DNA of 64,000 nt from Dehalococcoidia bacterium (lineage in GTDB: Bacteria > Chloroflexota > Dehalococcoidia > Bin125), in assembly GCA_022822855.1 (NCBI GenBank), contig JAJDYG010000033.1:124001-188000 (forward strand), read 5' to 3'. The notes below the pieces were generated by a model. The model saw only the letters and a list, made by a program, of their open reading frames with translations, was not told the DNA's origin and did not search any database. The position numbers were made by a program, and so were the translations under genes. The number at the start of each line of letters is the position of its first letter. Within the stretch, counting starts at the first letter, position 1. This document shows, one piece after another, positions 12,961 through 40,456 of this stretch.

Positions 12961-13422
12961 ATGGCGGATGTTGACCAGGTCAGCGACGACGATCGCCAGC
13001 AAGCGTCCGAGAAAAACCTCAACAAGATGTGGAAGTTCGCCCGCAACTTCGCGGAGAAGAGCGGCTCGTATCTGCATCCACAGGAGGAAATTACCGAATT
13101 CCTGGTGATCGGACTGGCCAAACACATCGACGACTACGGCCGGCCACTCTGTCCCTGCAACTTCTACGAGGACAAGGCTGAAGAGGTCAAAGAGTCGACC
13201 TGGATCTGCCCCTGCGAGGAGATGCAGCGCTGGAAGTACTGCCATTGACTGCTCTTCTGCGATGAGGAAGGTCTTCCCATCACCGAGTACCTGCCCAGAG
13301 ATCACGAAGGCGTGACGATCTACGGCGATCGCAAGGACCCGCATCCGGACAAAGGCCGAGCCCTCGGCCGGTTGGAAGAGCAAAGCGGACGCAAAATCGA
13401 CAAGCGCAAGCGCCGCGACTAG
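12961..13422 (+). CDS. Ferredoxin-thioredoxin reductase catalytic-type selenoprotein (in-frame UGA = Sec96)
   Basis: Read through the TGA at 13246-13248, the gene gives 153 residues with the FTR catalytic-chain signature CxC-x16-CxC-x8-CxU: C64, C66, C83, C85, C94 and Sec96. In characterised FTR, four of these cysteines bind a 4Fe-4S cluster and the second of the first pair plus the last one form the redox disulfide. The UGA falls exactly on that last active-site cysteine (family sequence CHC, here CHU). Translation continues in frame (LLFCDEEGLPITEYLP) to a basic C-terminus and TAG. A SECIS-like hairpin sits 12 nt after the UGA. The likely role is reducing thioredoxin or a similar disulfide with ferredoxin electrons. 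A 95-residue call ending at the UGA would lose the active site. Confidence 0.9.
13261..13281 (+). promoter_or_regulatory. Bacterial SECIS element of the FTR-like gene
   Basis: GAUG(A)GGA-AGGUCU-UCC-CAUC folds into a 7-bp stem with one bulged A and a six-base apical loop AGGUCU. The same loop sequence is found in the E. coli fdhF SECIS, which SelB recognises. The loop begins 20 nt after the UGA; in fdhF the gap is 17 nt, so the difference is one codon. The hairpin lies inside the coding sequence, as bacterial SECIS elements do. Confidence 0.85.
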
Positions 13423-33899: not shown

Positions 33900-33950
33900 T
33901 GAGAGTCTACGCGCCGGCCTCGCCTAACCTGCTCGATTGAGGAGTTGCTC

Positions 33951-35243
33951 ATGCCCGGACCGCTGGACCGCATCAAGGTGCTGGAACTCACCCAGATCAT
34001 CGCCGGGCCGTACTGCGGCGTCGCGCTGGCTGACCTGGGTGCTGAAGTCGTGAAGCTCGAATCTCCTGAGGGAGATGCTGCGCGCAAGATTGGACAGTTC
34101 GCTCCCGGAGAGAGCAAGGCCTTCCACGGACTGAATCGCGGGAAGCGCGGCTTGGTGCTCAACCTGGCCAGTCCCGACGGGAGGGCGGTGGCGCACCGGC
34201 TGATTCGCGACTTCGATGTATTCGTCACCAACGTCCGTCCGGGTGTCGCAGAGCGCATTGGAGTGGACTATGAGACGCTGCGCCAGTTTCGCCCGGACCT
34301 GATCTACTTCGACGTGACCGGCTTTGGCGAACGTGGACCGAGCTCGCATCGCGCGGGGTCCGATGCGATGGTCCAGGCCTACTCGGGCCTCGTGGCCGGC
34401 GACTTGAAGGTCGCACCGAACGGGGCGCCGGAGCAGATCACGGCAACTGCGCCGTCCGACTACATTGCCGCGCTCGGCGGCGCGATGGGAGTTTGCGCCG
34501 CGCTCTACCACCGCGAGCGGACCGGCGAGGGTCAACGGATCTCGACCTCATTGCTGGGCGCCGGTCTCGCTCTGCAGGCGCCCTGGGCCGCCGATGTTCC
34601 CGTTTCTGATTCAATTCTGATTGAACCGCTGCGGCGGATGATGTCGGAGATGCGTGAGTCAGGCGCATCGTATGCGGAGATGATCGAGGCTCGACGGAGC
34701 CGTCCAACGCAGGGCAAGGCGTTCCGCATCTACTACTCCGGCTATCCGGTCCGCGACGGCGCGATCATCCTCGGTGCGCTGACACCTCAGAATCGGGACC
34801 AGATCCGTACGGCGCTGGGGATTACCGACGATCCGATCGATGACGACGACTTCAATGCGATCGGTCCGGAGGCCGACGCCGTCGTTGCCCGTGTCGAAGC
34901 GCAGATCAGATCGAAGCTGGCCAGCGGCACGATGGCCGAGTGGATGGCCAGGCTCGACGCAGCCGGCGCGCCCGCCTCACCGGTCAACTGGCTGGAGGAC
35001 ATGGCCGACGATCCGCAGGTTGTCGCGATGAATCTGATGCGATCGATTGACCATCCGCTGACGGGACCGGAGCGGCATGTCGGACCGCTGGTTGAGATGT
35101 CCGAAACAGAGACGGGTACGGATCGCTCCGCGCCGCCGCTTGACAGCGAAACCGATGCGATCCTCCTGGAGCACGGCTTCGAGGAACCGGAGATCGTCAG
35201 ACTTCGAGCAAGCGGGGCCATCGGCGCTGCTTCCTCGACATAG
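33951..35243 (+). CDS. CaiB/BaiF family CoA-transferase 1
   Basis: The 430-residue class III CoA-transferase moves CoA from an acyl-CoA to a carboxylic acid through an aspartyl-CoA anhydride; some relatives are acyl-CoA racemases. The N-terminal block (IKVLELTQIIAGPYCGVALADLGAEV, written here as adjoining parts of residues 8-33) and NRGKRGLVLNL are diagnostic. The likely catalytic Asp is D170 in TAPSDYIAAL, at the position known from formyl-CoA transferase. The ATG at 33951 follows TTGAGGAG; a TTG two codons earlier is not needed. First of three tandem paralogs, and the most diverged of them. Confidence 0.92.
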   Translation: MPGPLDRIKVLELTQIIAGPYCGVALADLGAEVVKLESPEGDAARKIGQFAPGESKAFHGLNRGKRGLVLNLASPDGRAVAHRLIRDFDVFVTNVRPGVAERIGVDYETLRQFRPDLIYFDVTGFGERGPSSHRAGSDAMVQAYSGLVAGDLKVAPNGAPEQITATAPSDYIAALGGAMGVCAALYHRERTGEGQRISTSLLGAGLALQAPWAADVPVSDSILIEPLRRMMSEMRESGASYAEMIEARRSRPTQGKAFRIYYSGYPVRDGAIILGALTPQNRDQIRTALGITDDPIDDDDFNAIGPEADAVVARVEAQIRSKLASGTMAEWMARLDAAGAPASPVNWLEDMADDPQVVAMNLMRSIDHPLTGPERHVGPLVEMSETETGTDRSAPPLDSETDAILLEHGFEEPEIVRLRASGAIGAASST

Positions 35244-35287
35244 TTACCTATCCTCACGGCAACTCGCGATCGAGAGAGGAGAATCCG

Positions 35288-36589
35288 ATGCCCGGTGCGC
35301 TTGATGGAATCAAGGTTCTTGAGGTCACCCAGATTATCGCCGGACCGATGTGTGGGGTGATGCTCTCCGACATGGGCGCCGACGTGATCAAGATCGAGTC
35401 CGCGGCCGGTGACGGGATGCGCTTGCTCGGTCAGATCTCGCCGGGCGAGAGCAAGGGCTTCCACGTGTTCAATCGAGGCAAGCGGGGAATGGTGCTCAAC
35501 CTGCAGGATCCCGATGGACGGGCCGTTGTGCAGCGGCTGATCACGGAGATGGACGTCTTCCTGATCAACGCTCGCCCCGGCGTGCCTGAACGCCTCGGCA
35601 TCGACTACGAGAGCCTGCGGGCGCACAAGCCAGACCTGGTCTACCTCGAGAACACGGCCTATGGTCCGACCGGTCCGTCCGCCCACCGAGCCGGGGCGGA
35701 CATCATCGCCCAGGCGTATTCGGGGCTGATGGCCGGCGACGAGAAGGTCGACGAGCACGGCGGGCCGGACCTGATCACGGCCACGACGCCTGCCGACTTC
35801 GTGGCGGCGTTTACCAGTGCGATCGCGGTCTGCGCCGCGCTCTTCCACCGCGAGCGGACTGGGGAGGGCCAGAAGATCGACACGTCGCTGCTTGCCGGAG
35901 CGATGGTGTTGCAAAACGCGTTCGCCTCGCGGATGCCTGTTTCCGACGCCGTCCTGCTCGATCCGATTCTGAGCGGGCTCGCCGCCGTTCGAGAACGCGG
36001 CGGCAGCTACCGCGATCTGCTGGGCGCGCGCGGAGGTTTGCGGGCGCTGGTGGGTGGAGCGTTCTTCCTCTACTACGGCGGATACCAGACGTCCGACGGC
36101 GCGATCATGCTCGGCTGCGTGACGCCGCCGAATCGACAGCAGGTTCGCAACGCGCTCGGCCTGGAGCCGGGGGATGACCCGACCGACGACGGTGACTTCA
36201 ACGCGCTGGCCGAGGGCTCGGAAGAGATCGTGGCGCGTGTCCGCGCTCAGATTTCGGAGCGGTTCGCCTCGGACACCACGGAGAACTGGGTAGCCAAGCT
36301 CGACGCCGCCGGCGCGCCAGCCTCGCAGGTCAATATCCCGGAGGAGATGATTGACGATCCGCAGGTTCAGGCCTTGGGCATCATGGTCGACCTTGAGCAT
36401 CGGCTGACCGGTCCAGAGACGATGGTTGGTCCGGCGTTCGGCATGTCCGCTACGCCTCTTGAGGCTCGCCGCGCATCGCCGCCCCTGGATGGAGACACCG
36501 ACGAGGTGTTGATCGAGTACGGCTACACCGAGGAGGAGGTCGCCGCCCTGCGCTCATCCGGTGCAGTCGGCTTGCCCTCGGACAGTTAG
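35288..36589 (+). CDS. CaiB/BaiF family CoA-transferase 2
   Basis: The 433-residue paralog has the same layout as its neighbours: IKVLEVTQIIAGPMCG at the start, FNRGKRGMVLNLQDPDG, and the catalytic D170 in TTPADFVAAF. It shares HGGPDLITATTPAD and DEKVDEHGG with the third copy more than with the first. The ATG at 35288 follows GAGAGGAGAATCCG, a strong ribosome-binding site 44 nt after the previous stop. Substrate unknown; no acyl donor gene is linked. Confidence 0.92.
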   Translation: MPGALDGIKVLEVTQIIAGPMCGVMLSDMGADVIKIESAAGDGMRLLGQISPGESKGFHVFNRGKRGMVLNLQDPDGRAVVQRLITEMDVFLINARPGVPERLGIDYESLRAHKPDLVYLENTAYGPTGPSAHRAGADIIAQAYSGLMAGDEKVDEHGGPDLITATTPADFVAAFTSAIAVCAALFHRERTGEGQKIDTSLLAGAMVLQNAFASRMPVSDAVLLDPILSGLAAVRERGGSYRDLLGARGGLRALVGGAFFLYYGGYQTSDGAIMLGCVTPPNRQQVRNALGLEPGDDPTDDGDFNALAEGSEEIVARVRAQISERFASDTTENWVAKLDAAGAPASQVNIPEEMIDDPQVQALGIMVDLEHRLTGPETMVGPAFGMSATPLEARRASPPLDGDTDEVLIEYGYTEEEVAALRSSGAVGLPSDS

Positions 36590-36598
36590 GGACATCGG

Positions 36599-37900
36599 AT
36601 GTCTGGCCCGCTGGACGGGATCAAGGTTCTCGAACTGACGCAGATCATCGCCGGGCCAATGTGCGGCGTGATGCTCTCCGACCTTGGCGCCGAGGTGGTC
36701 AAGATCGAATCGCCGCAAGGCGACGCTACTCGCGGTGTCGGTCAGTTCATCCCCAATGAATCGAAGGTCTTCCACGTCTACAACCGAGGTAAGCGCGGGA
36801 TCGTCCTGAATCTGCAGTCGGAGCAGGGCCAGGCGGTTGTTCACCGGCTGGTCCGCGAGTTCGATGTGTTTCTGATCAACGCCCGTCCCGGTGTCGCTGA
36901 GCGGCTGCAAGTCGACTACCAGCGCCTCAGCGAGCAGAACCCGCAACTGATTTACCTCGAGAACACGGCGTTTGGCCCGGAGGGTCCCTCGGCCGGCCGG
37001 GCCGGAGCGGACATCATCGCCCAGGCCTACTCCGGGCTGATGGCCGGCGATGAGAAGATGGACGAGCATGGCGGCCCGTTGGCGATCTCGGCGACGACTC
37101 CGGCCGACTATGGGGCCGCCTGGACCAGCGCGATGGCCCTCTGCGCTGCGCTGTTCCATCGCGAGCGCACCGGGCGGGGACAACACATCGAGACTTCTTT
37201 GTTGGGGGCGGCACTGCAGCTGCAAAACTTCGCTATTGCCCGGTTGCCGGTCAGCGACGCGACGTTTCTCCAGCCTTCCCTTGATGAGATTCGGGCGGTG
37301 CGCGAGCGAGGCGGTGCTTACCACGAGATCCTCGAGGCGCGCACCGGTGTGCGGTCGATGATCGGAGCAGCATTCGCGCTCTACTACGGCGGCTACGAGA
37401 CCGCCGACGGCGCGATCATGCTGGGCTGCCTGACGCCGCTGAATCGTCAACAGGTTCGCCAGGCGATTGGACTGACGGAACAGGATGATCCGACTGACGC
37501 GGAGGGCTTCAATCCCCTCGATCCGGCTTCGGTCGAGATCGTTGAGCGAGCGCGAGGGAACATCGCGGCCAGGTTCCGCAGCGACACGACCGCCAACTGG
37601 ATTGTGAAGCTTGACGCCAAGGGCGCGCCGGCGTCTCAGGTCAACCTGCCCGAAGACATGGTCGACGATCCCCAGGTCAAGGCGATCGGCGTGATTGCCG
37701 AGATCGAGCATCCACTCACCGGCCCCGAACAGATGGTTGGCCCCGTCTTCAGAATGTCGGATTCACCGCTCAGGGCCAGCGGGCCATCGCCGGTGTTCGA
37801 CGGCGACTCCGACGACATCCTGCGCGAGCACGGTTACGGTGAGCCGGAGATTGCCGCACTCAGGTCATCAGGCGCAGTTGGGCTGCAGGCTGCGGACTAG
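36599..37900 (+). CDS. CaiB/BaiF family CoA-transferase 3
   Basis: The 433-residue third copy follows the second by 9 nt and is surely cotranscribed. It keeps the N-terminal CoA-binding block, YNRGKRGIVLNLQSEQG and the catalytic D170 in TTPADYGAAW. Copies 2 and 3 are closest to each other, suggesting an older duplication giving copy 1 and a later one giving the pair. Class III enzymes are interlocked homodimers, but mixed dimers of 2 and 3 are possible. The start is ATG 36599-36601. Confidence 0.92.
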   Translation: MSGPLDGIKVLELTQIIAGPMCGVMLSDLGAEVVKIESPQGDATRGVGQFIPNESKVFHVYNRGKRGIVLNLQSEQGQAVVHRLVREFDVFLINARPGVAERLQVDYQRLSEQNPQLIYLENTAFGPEGPSAGRAGADIIAQAYSGLMAGDEKMDEHGGPLAISATTPADYGAAWTSAMALCAALFHRERTGRGQHIETSLLGAALQLQNFAIARLPVSDATFLQPSLDEIRAVRERGGAYHEILEARTGVRSMIGAAFALYYGGYETADGAIMLGCLTPLNRQQVRQAIGLTEQDDPTDAEGFNPLDPASVEIVERARGNIAARFRSDTTANWIVKLDAKGAPASQVNLPEDMVDDPQVKAIGVIAEIEHPLTGPEQMVGPVFRMSDSPLRASGPSPVFDGDSDDILREHGYGEPEIAALRSSGAVGLQAAD

Positions 37901-39734: not shown

Positions 39735-40205
39735 ATGGCGCGTTTCGAGTACATCTCACGCAACAAGCTTGAACTGAAGAACGGCATCCGCCACGCGACG
39801 CTGGGCGACGTGCCCGAGCAGGTCGCCTACGGCGTCCAGGGCAAGCTCAAGGAGCATTACGGGGTGCCCGAGAGCGCGCCGCCGATGACGGCCACTCTGG
39901 ACCACATCGTCGCCGCGGTCGGCGGTTGAATGTACGGCACTTTGGCGCGGGCGATGTCCGCGCGCAAGGTCGAGTTCGACCCCAACACCTACAAGGCCGA
40001 CGTCCTGGGCATGATCGAGGGCGAAGACAACCAGACGATCCGGATTACGAAGATTCACGTGGTTTTCCAGATCCCGGGGATCGTTGAGGAACAGCGAGCC
40101 GCCGCCGAGCGGGCGGTGAAGTTCCACGCTCCGGGCTGCCCGGCGCACGAGAGCGTCAAGGACGCGATCGAGATCACCTGGGAAGCCGACTACGGCGATA
40201 ACTGA
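39735..40205 (+). CDS. OsmC-like selenoprotein (in-frame UGA = Sec65)
   Basis: Two abutting frames, 39735-39929 and 39930-40205, are in the same reading frame and are separated only by TGA at 39927-39929. Read through, they give one 156-residue OsmC/Ohr-family protein. The UGA lies in TLDHIVAAVGG-U-MYGTLARAM, the helix that carries the peroxidatic Cys in the family. The second conserved Cys is C135 in HAPGCPAHESV. A SECIS-like hairpin follows 15 nt after the UGA. OsmC/Ohr proteins reduce organic peroxides, usually with dihydrolipoyl proteins or thiols. AGGAGTGAGAC before ATG 39735 supports the start; the ATG directly after the UGA has no ribosome-binding site of its own. Confidence 0.9.
39945..39963 (+). 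promoter_or_regulatory. Bacterial SECIS element of the OsmC-like gene
   Basis: GCGCGG-GCGATGT-CCGCGC forms a perfect six-bp GC stem with a seven-base loop that begins with G. The loop starts 21 nt after the UGA. Bacterial SECIS elements have an apical loop about 16-37 nt from the UGA with a G among its first bases, which this meets. The loop is less fdhF-like than that of the FTR gene. Confidence 0.7.
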
Positions 40206-40360: not shown

Positions 40361-40456
40361 GTCAGATTTGGTCAGGTTTGGTCAGATTCTGTCGGGAAGA
40401 GGTCAGGTTTAGGCGGGGTATGTCAGCCCAGGTCAGCTCATGGCGGGTTCTGTCGG
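40361..40456. repeat. Degenerate 10-bp tandem array C
   Basis: Units start at 40361, 40371, 40381, 40391, 40402, 40412, 40422, 40432, 40442 and 40452, with consensus GTCAGNTTTG (variants GTCGG and GGCGG at the head). Ten units with one 11-base step give about 10.1 bp spacing, close to the DNA helical turn. It lies between the OsmC-like gene and the small minus-strand gene at 40613. The rest of 40206-40612 holds no supportable gene. Confidence 0.8.

Follow-up and report, generated by a model that had tools for sequence, protein, structure and literature searches.

Described OsmC-like selenoproteins

OsmC-like selenoproteins have been known as a kind since 2005, and the preliminary description of the present locus noted that they were described from metagenomes. 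Three sequences were reported from the Sargasso Sea (PMC1088965) and five from the GOS dataset (PMC2398784), with the motif UxxT. A 2026 review lists a single OsmC-like family, likewise with the motif UxxT (PMC13188914). On the basis of this motif the Sargasso Sea/GOS family was equated with the NCBIfam family NF041052 (OsmC_like_Se), and most of the Chloroflexota members of the latter contain ULLT or a near variant, in line with UxxT. The locus considered here is found in the window, the whole 64,000 nucleotide stretch of a Dehalococcoidia genome that was analysed. Its predicted product shares with the NF041052 family the membership of the OsmC superfamily, a selenocysteine (Sec) at the peroxidatic Cys position, a bacterial SECIS-like hairpin and an occurrence in the Chloroflexota. 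It differs in its motif, which is UxxxT (UMYGT) rather than UxxT (ULLT), and in its scores against the NF041052 model, with 17 bits for the window protein and up to 23 bits for its relatives, against a cut-off of 95. Furthermore, in a tree obtained by a quick search, with long branches and an uncertain deep order, the 51 members of the window family group together in a single clade (SH-aLRT 98), which is separate from NF041052, with Cys-containing OsmC groups branching on both sides. The genome from which the window derives contains no match to NF041052, and no further OsmC-family gene was detected in it. The window family appears to constitute a lineage distinct from NF041052, which is so far unmodelled in NCBIfam and the open-access literature, and Sec has likely been gained independently in the two groups, as far as can be judged from a quick, long-branched tree.

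The Ohr and OsmC subfamilies (TIGR03561, TIGR03562) resemble the window protein in their fold, in the distance of approximately 70 residues between the redox positions and in the location of the peroxidatic residue on the central helix. However, they carry Cys where the window protein would carry Sec and a catalytic Glu where it has Asp at best, and the window protein scores far below the subfamily cut-offs. The window also includes another UGA-containing thiol-redox gene, which is ferredoxin-thioredoxin reductase beta-like (FTR-like; 12961-13422, + strand) and has one in-frame UGA (CH-UGA-LLFC; 13247-13249) that is kept in three congeners (91-97 % identity). This gene calls to mind the FtrB selenoprotein family NF041072, but the FtrB fold is unrelated to that of the OsmC-type protein, and the FTR-like gene, with its one UGA, scores 37.9 bits against a cut-off of 160.

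Structure of the OsmC-type locus

As read from the window, an ATG at 39735 opens a reading frame which is interrupted by a TGA at 39927-39929, resumes with a further ATG at 39930 and closes with a terminal TGA at 40203-40205 (Table 1). These coordinates agree with the two frames of 64 and 91 codons, abutting in one frame and parted by TGA, of the preliminary description. When joined, the two frames yield a product with a score of 34.9 bits against Pfam OsmC (PF02566), above the gathering score of 27.5 and as expected of the single OsmC-like protein that had been proposed, while separately the first half has no match and the second reaches 24.1 bits. PF02566 is matched by all 18 family members, and the second Cys (C135) is intact in the joined product. 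An aminotransferase is encoded 22 bp upstream of the gene, as is the case in several congeners; it is absent upstream in other lineages and thus provides no functional clue. Downstream, the gene is followed by an intergenic region with a short 10-bp tandem repeat, GTCAGATTTG (2.8 copies; 40361-40388), as well as more GTCAG units. Elsewhere in the window, three consecutive and mutually similar reading frames of 432-433 amino acids (33945-37900, + strand) were recognised by eye as presumable CaiB/BaiF-like CoA-transferases.

Table 1. Features of the OsmC-type selenoprotein locus, in window positions
Feature	Position	Strand	Remarks
Selenoprotein gene, OsmC/Ohr superfamily, 156 aa, UGA as Sec codon 65, stop TGA	39735..40205	+	
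In-frame UGA (Sec65), peroxidatic Cys position	39927..39929	+	TGA in all matches of family and class; TGC in G722, TGG in G658
Cys135 codon (TGC), presumed resolving Cys	40137..40139	+	Invariant in 51 homologues
Shine-Dalgarno-like sequence CAGGAGTG, 5' of start codon	39723..39730	+	By eye
SECIS-like hairpin, stem GCGCGG/CCGCGC, loop GCGAUGU	39945..39963	+	Loop starts 21 nt after UGA

Conservation of the in-frame UGA

The protein is encoded in 18/20 genomes of the organism's family, and all eighteen genes contain exactly one internal stop, a TGA in the same column. The fourteen congeners share 86-97 % identity with the window protein, and three genomes that belong to other genera 64-67 %; residues 53-69, around the UGA, are invariant. 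When 393 genomes of the class were searched with a profile, 34 of them yielded a total of 35 matches, each containing a single TGA and the most distant sharing ~34 % identity; a second profile, applied to 400 genomes of the phylum, matched 39 of these. Of the 38 complete phylum matches, 36 contain a single TGA, while the remaining two carry TGC (Cys; G722, L154) and TGG (Trp; G658, L155), and the Sec codon of the 51 sampled homologues is UGA in 49, Cys in one and Trp in one. All 51 homologues are single genes, which runs counter to the prospect of two separately encoded proteins and bears out the expectation that both halves would be conserved together, with Cys in place of Sec in G722. The latter, the sole Cys version found, reads AGCMTGV at the Sec site and is, as judged from its sequence, a classical Sec/Cys counterpart. 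The homologue with Trp (L155; G658:C49:15837-16214) is a close relative with TGG at the Sec codon, yet SelA is encoded in its genome; it is possibly an inactivated copy or the result of a base error. G637 contains the UGA-bearing OsmC gene twice, at two sites ~20 kb apart (G637:C1:7645737-7646180 and 7666407-7666850). The family is present in about a tenth of the sampled Chloroflexota genomes, with the Cys version almost absent. No relatives were found among phage records, plasmid records and viral contigs, and on that evidence a mobile or viral gene was rejected.

The SECIS-like hairpin

The published model of the bacterial SECIS element (bSECIS) comprises a stem of 4-16 bp, a loop of 3-9 nt, a spacing of 16-37 nt and a folding energy of -7.5 kcal/mol or lower, with a G within the first two positions of the loop (PMC13188914). 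The 6-bp GC hairpin with a G-starting loop, noted previously downstream of the UGA, was confirmed and conforms to all four published criteria, outdoing every one of the synonymous shuffles of its own sequence. Compliance extends to 44/49 UGA-carrying homologues, whereas 100 rounds of synonymous shuffling, with protein and codon usage preserved, gave 12 on average and never more than 16; the suggested check by SECIS folding thus came out well above shuffle expectation. A common register is found elsewhere (GCGCGC-UGGAA-GCGCGC), in which one pair occurs as G-C, C-G or A-U and another as C-G or U-A. In the lineages sharing this register 97.8 % of cells pair, and their count of double changes was reached by 0/500 shuffles. 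Furthermore, synonymous variation across codons 72-83 is near zero in fifteen species of the window's genus, lower than in any interval in 5000 permutations. The register shifts between lineages, a weak stem (-4.3 kcal/mol) is seen in L019, a congener, and by the strict criterion the hairpin is missing from a few homologues, among them L087. By sequence comparison, the SECIS element is conserved in kind and not base for base. A scan of the window with Rfam at the gathering threshold found no SECIS, and single-sequence z-scores after synonymous shuffling were modest (group means ~ -0.75 to -1.3); the case for the hairpin rests on the bSECIS criterion, covariation and synonymous constraint, rather than on these z-scores.

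Selenium machinery

The genome encodes SelA (519 bits), SelB (630 aa), SelD (349 bits) and a tRNA-Sec (70 bits), which ARAGORN identified as tRNA-SeC with the anticodon TCA (UCA in RNA) and which shares its contig with the window. The absence of selenocysteine machinery, which would have spoken against a selenoprotein, can thus be set aside. The gene for SelD (G000:C29:63104-64045; L162) itself contains an in-frame UGA in an N-terminal CGGUG motif, which we take to be the usual Sec/Cys site of SelD, and therefore a second gene in this genome needs UGA decoding. The proposed use of selenium by the organism is upheld by this full machinery and by the retention of the FTR-like UGA among congeners. 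In the test panel, SelA is encoded in 40/42 UGA carriers versus 7/16 non-carriers (Fisher p = 4e-5, an optimistic value as related genomes are not independent). The machinery does not imply the presence of the OsmC-type gene, since in G015, of the same family, SelA, SelB and tRNA-Sec were found, while neither the OsmC-type gene nor an above-cut-off SelD was found.

Predicted fold and active site

The fold and active-site layout were predicted with AlphaFold2 on the basis of 14 sequences (pLDDT 89.6, pTM 0.82). The top Foldseek matches of the model are all OsmC/Ohr-type (E from 2e-9, 10-20 % identity), while a sequence-only search of the PDB returned chance matches only. In the predicted fold a central helix (54-76) contains residue 65, so that Sec65 occupies the peroxidatic position and C135 that of the second Cys. 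T54, D56, G68, G92, R126 and C135 are invariant across the 51 sequences, while position 19 is occupied by Arg in 47 of 49 sequences and by Lys in the other two. Ohr catalysis involves an Arg-Glu-Cys triad (PMC5962072). The catalytic Glu is absent as such among the 51 sequences of the selenoprotein family, and R19 and D56 are candidate counterparts of the Arg and Glu of Ohr, with Asp replacing Glu.

In the proposed mechanism, the ribosome would meet the UGA at codon 65, where the downstream hairpin would recruit SelB carrying Sec-tRNA-Sec, so that Sec would be inserted and translation would run on as far as the stop codon proper, at 40203. This would yield a small alpha/beta protein in which Sec65, on the central helix, would be peroxidatic and Cys135 would provide the resolving thiol. 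In analogy with the Ohr/OsmC enzymes, the selenol would attack ROOH to form a selenenic acid, this would give rise to a selenenylsulfide with C135, and the latter would be re-reduced by a cellular dithiol. It is from the analogy with these enzymes that we infer the substrate, reductant and physiological role. The Sec-based organic peroxide reductase put forward earlier is thus supported as regards Sec and the OsmC fold, while for the reductase part we infer that the protein may reduce organic hydroperoxides from its family and active-site residues only.

Alternative readings of the locus

The locus is best read as one selenoprotein gene of the Ohr/OsmC superfamily, with the UGA decoded as Sec and with a product that would by analogy be a peroxidase (probability approximately 0.87). 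Comparative evidence shows the decoding as Sec. The ATG codons that start both frames in the window's genus would suit two separate small proteins, and partial stopping, usual at Sec UGA codons, could conceivably be regulated to give a functional short form. However, the ATG following the UGA is replaced by CTG, CTC or TTG in other lineages and has no clear Shine-Dalgarno sequence in front of it, the predicted central helix spans the UGA, the Cys homologue reads through as a single protein and the first half alone has no family match, making such a reading extremely unlikely. Decoding as a different amino acid such as Trp, by a code change or near-cognate read-through, is very unlikely: the TGG in G658 is in its favour, but UGA is also the terminal stop of the same gene, the Sec machinery is complete and includes a SelD that needs Sec, and the position is that of the redox Cys of the family, occupied by Cys in G722. 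The draft genome is fragmented, with 42 contigs, and its relatives are titled MAGs, which might be taken to favour an assembly error. However, the error at 39927-39929 that had been considered is excluded because the relatives, Dehalococcoidia/Chloroflexota MAGs, stem from a large number of separate assemblies, with the identical TGA recurring in dozens of genomes that were assembled independently. The strong conservation of the sequence to either side of the TGA likewise argues against a decaying pseudogene, and the probability of either is practically negligible.

The function is less certain. An OsmC-fold selenoprotein with a function other than organic hydroperoxide reduction, such as a YhfA-like redox protein whose substrates would be persulfides, sulfenic acids or some other electrophile, would be consistent with the distance of the sequence from the Ohr/OsmC subfamilies (13.8 bits against TIGR03562, with a cut-off of 85.8), with the failure to keep the Glu of Ohr as Glu and with the occurrence of certain superfamily members without known activity (PMC5962072). 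Such a function is considered unlikely, albeit far from negligible, given the conservation of the two redox residues and of an Arg close to where one is expected, and given that this is the sole OsmC-family protein detected in the genome. The peroxidase reading of the selenoprotein is thus preferred.

Implications

In earlier surveys OsmC-like selenoproteins were few and were handled as one UxxT family. While OsmC-fold thiol proteins with Sec were known as a kind, the UxxxT lineage appears to be a further one that NCBIfam and the open-access literature have so far not modelled. It is quite probable that this lineage represents a second, independently evolved group of OsmC-fold selenoproteins, which is near-obligately Sec-containing, widespread in the Chloroflexota, unmodelled in NCBIfam and probably annotated in public records as split or truncated genes, and which includes the sole OsmC/Ohr-type protein detected in the genus. 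The near-absence of Cys versions suggests a reaction in which Cys substitutes poorly for Sec. Antioxidant genes in this group can also escape notice, because the codon of their key residue is taken for a stop.
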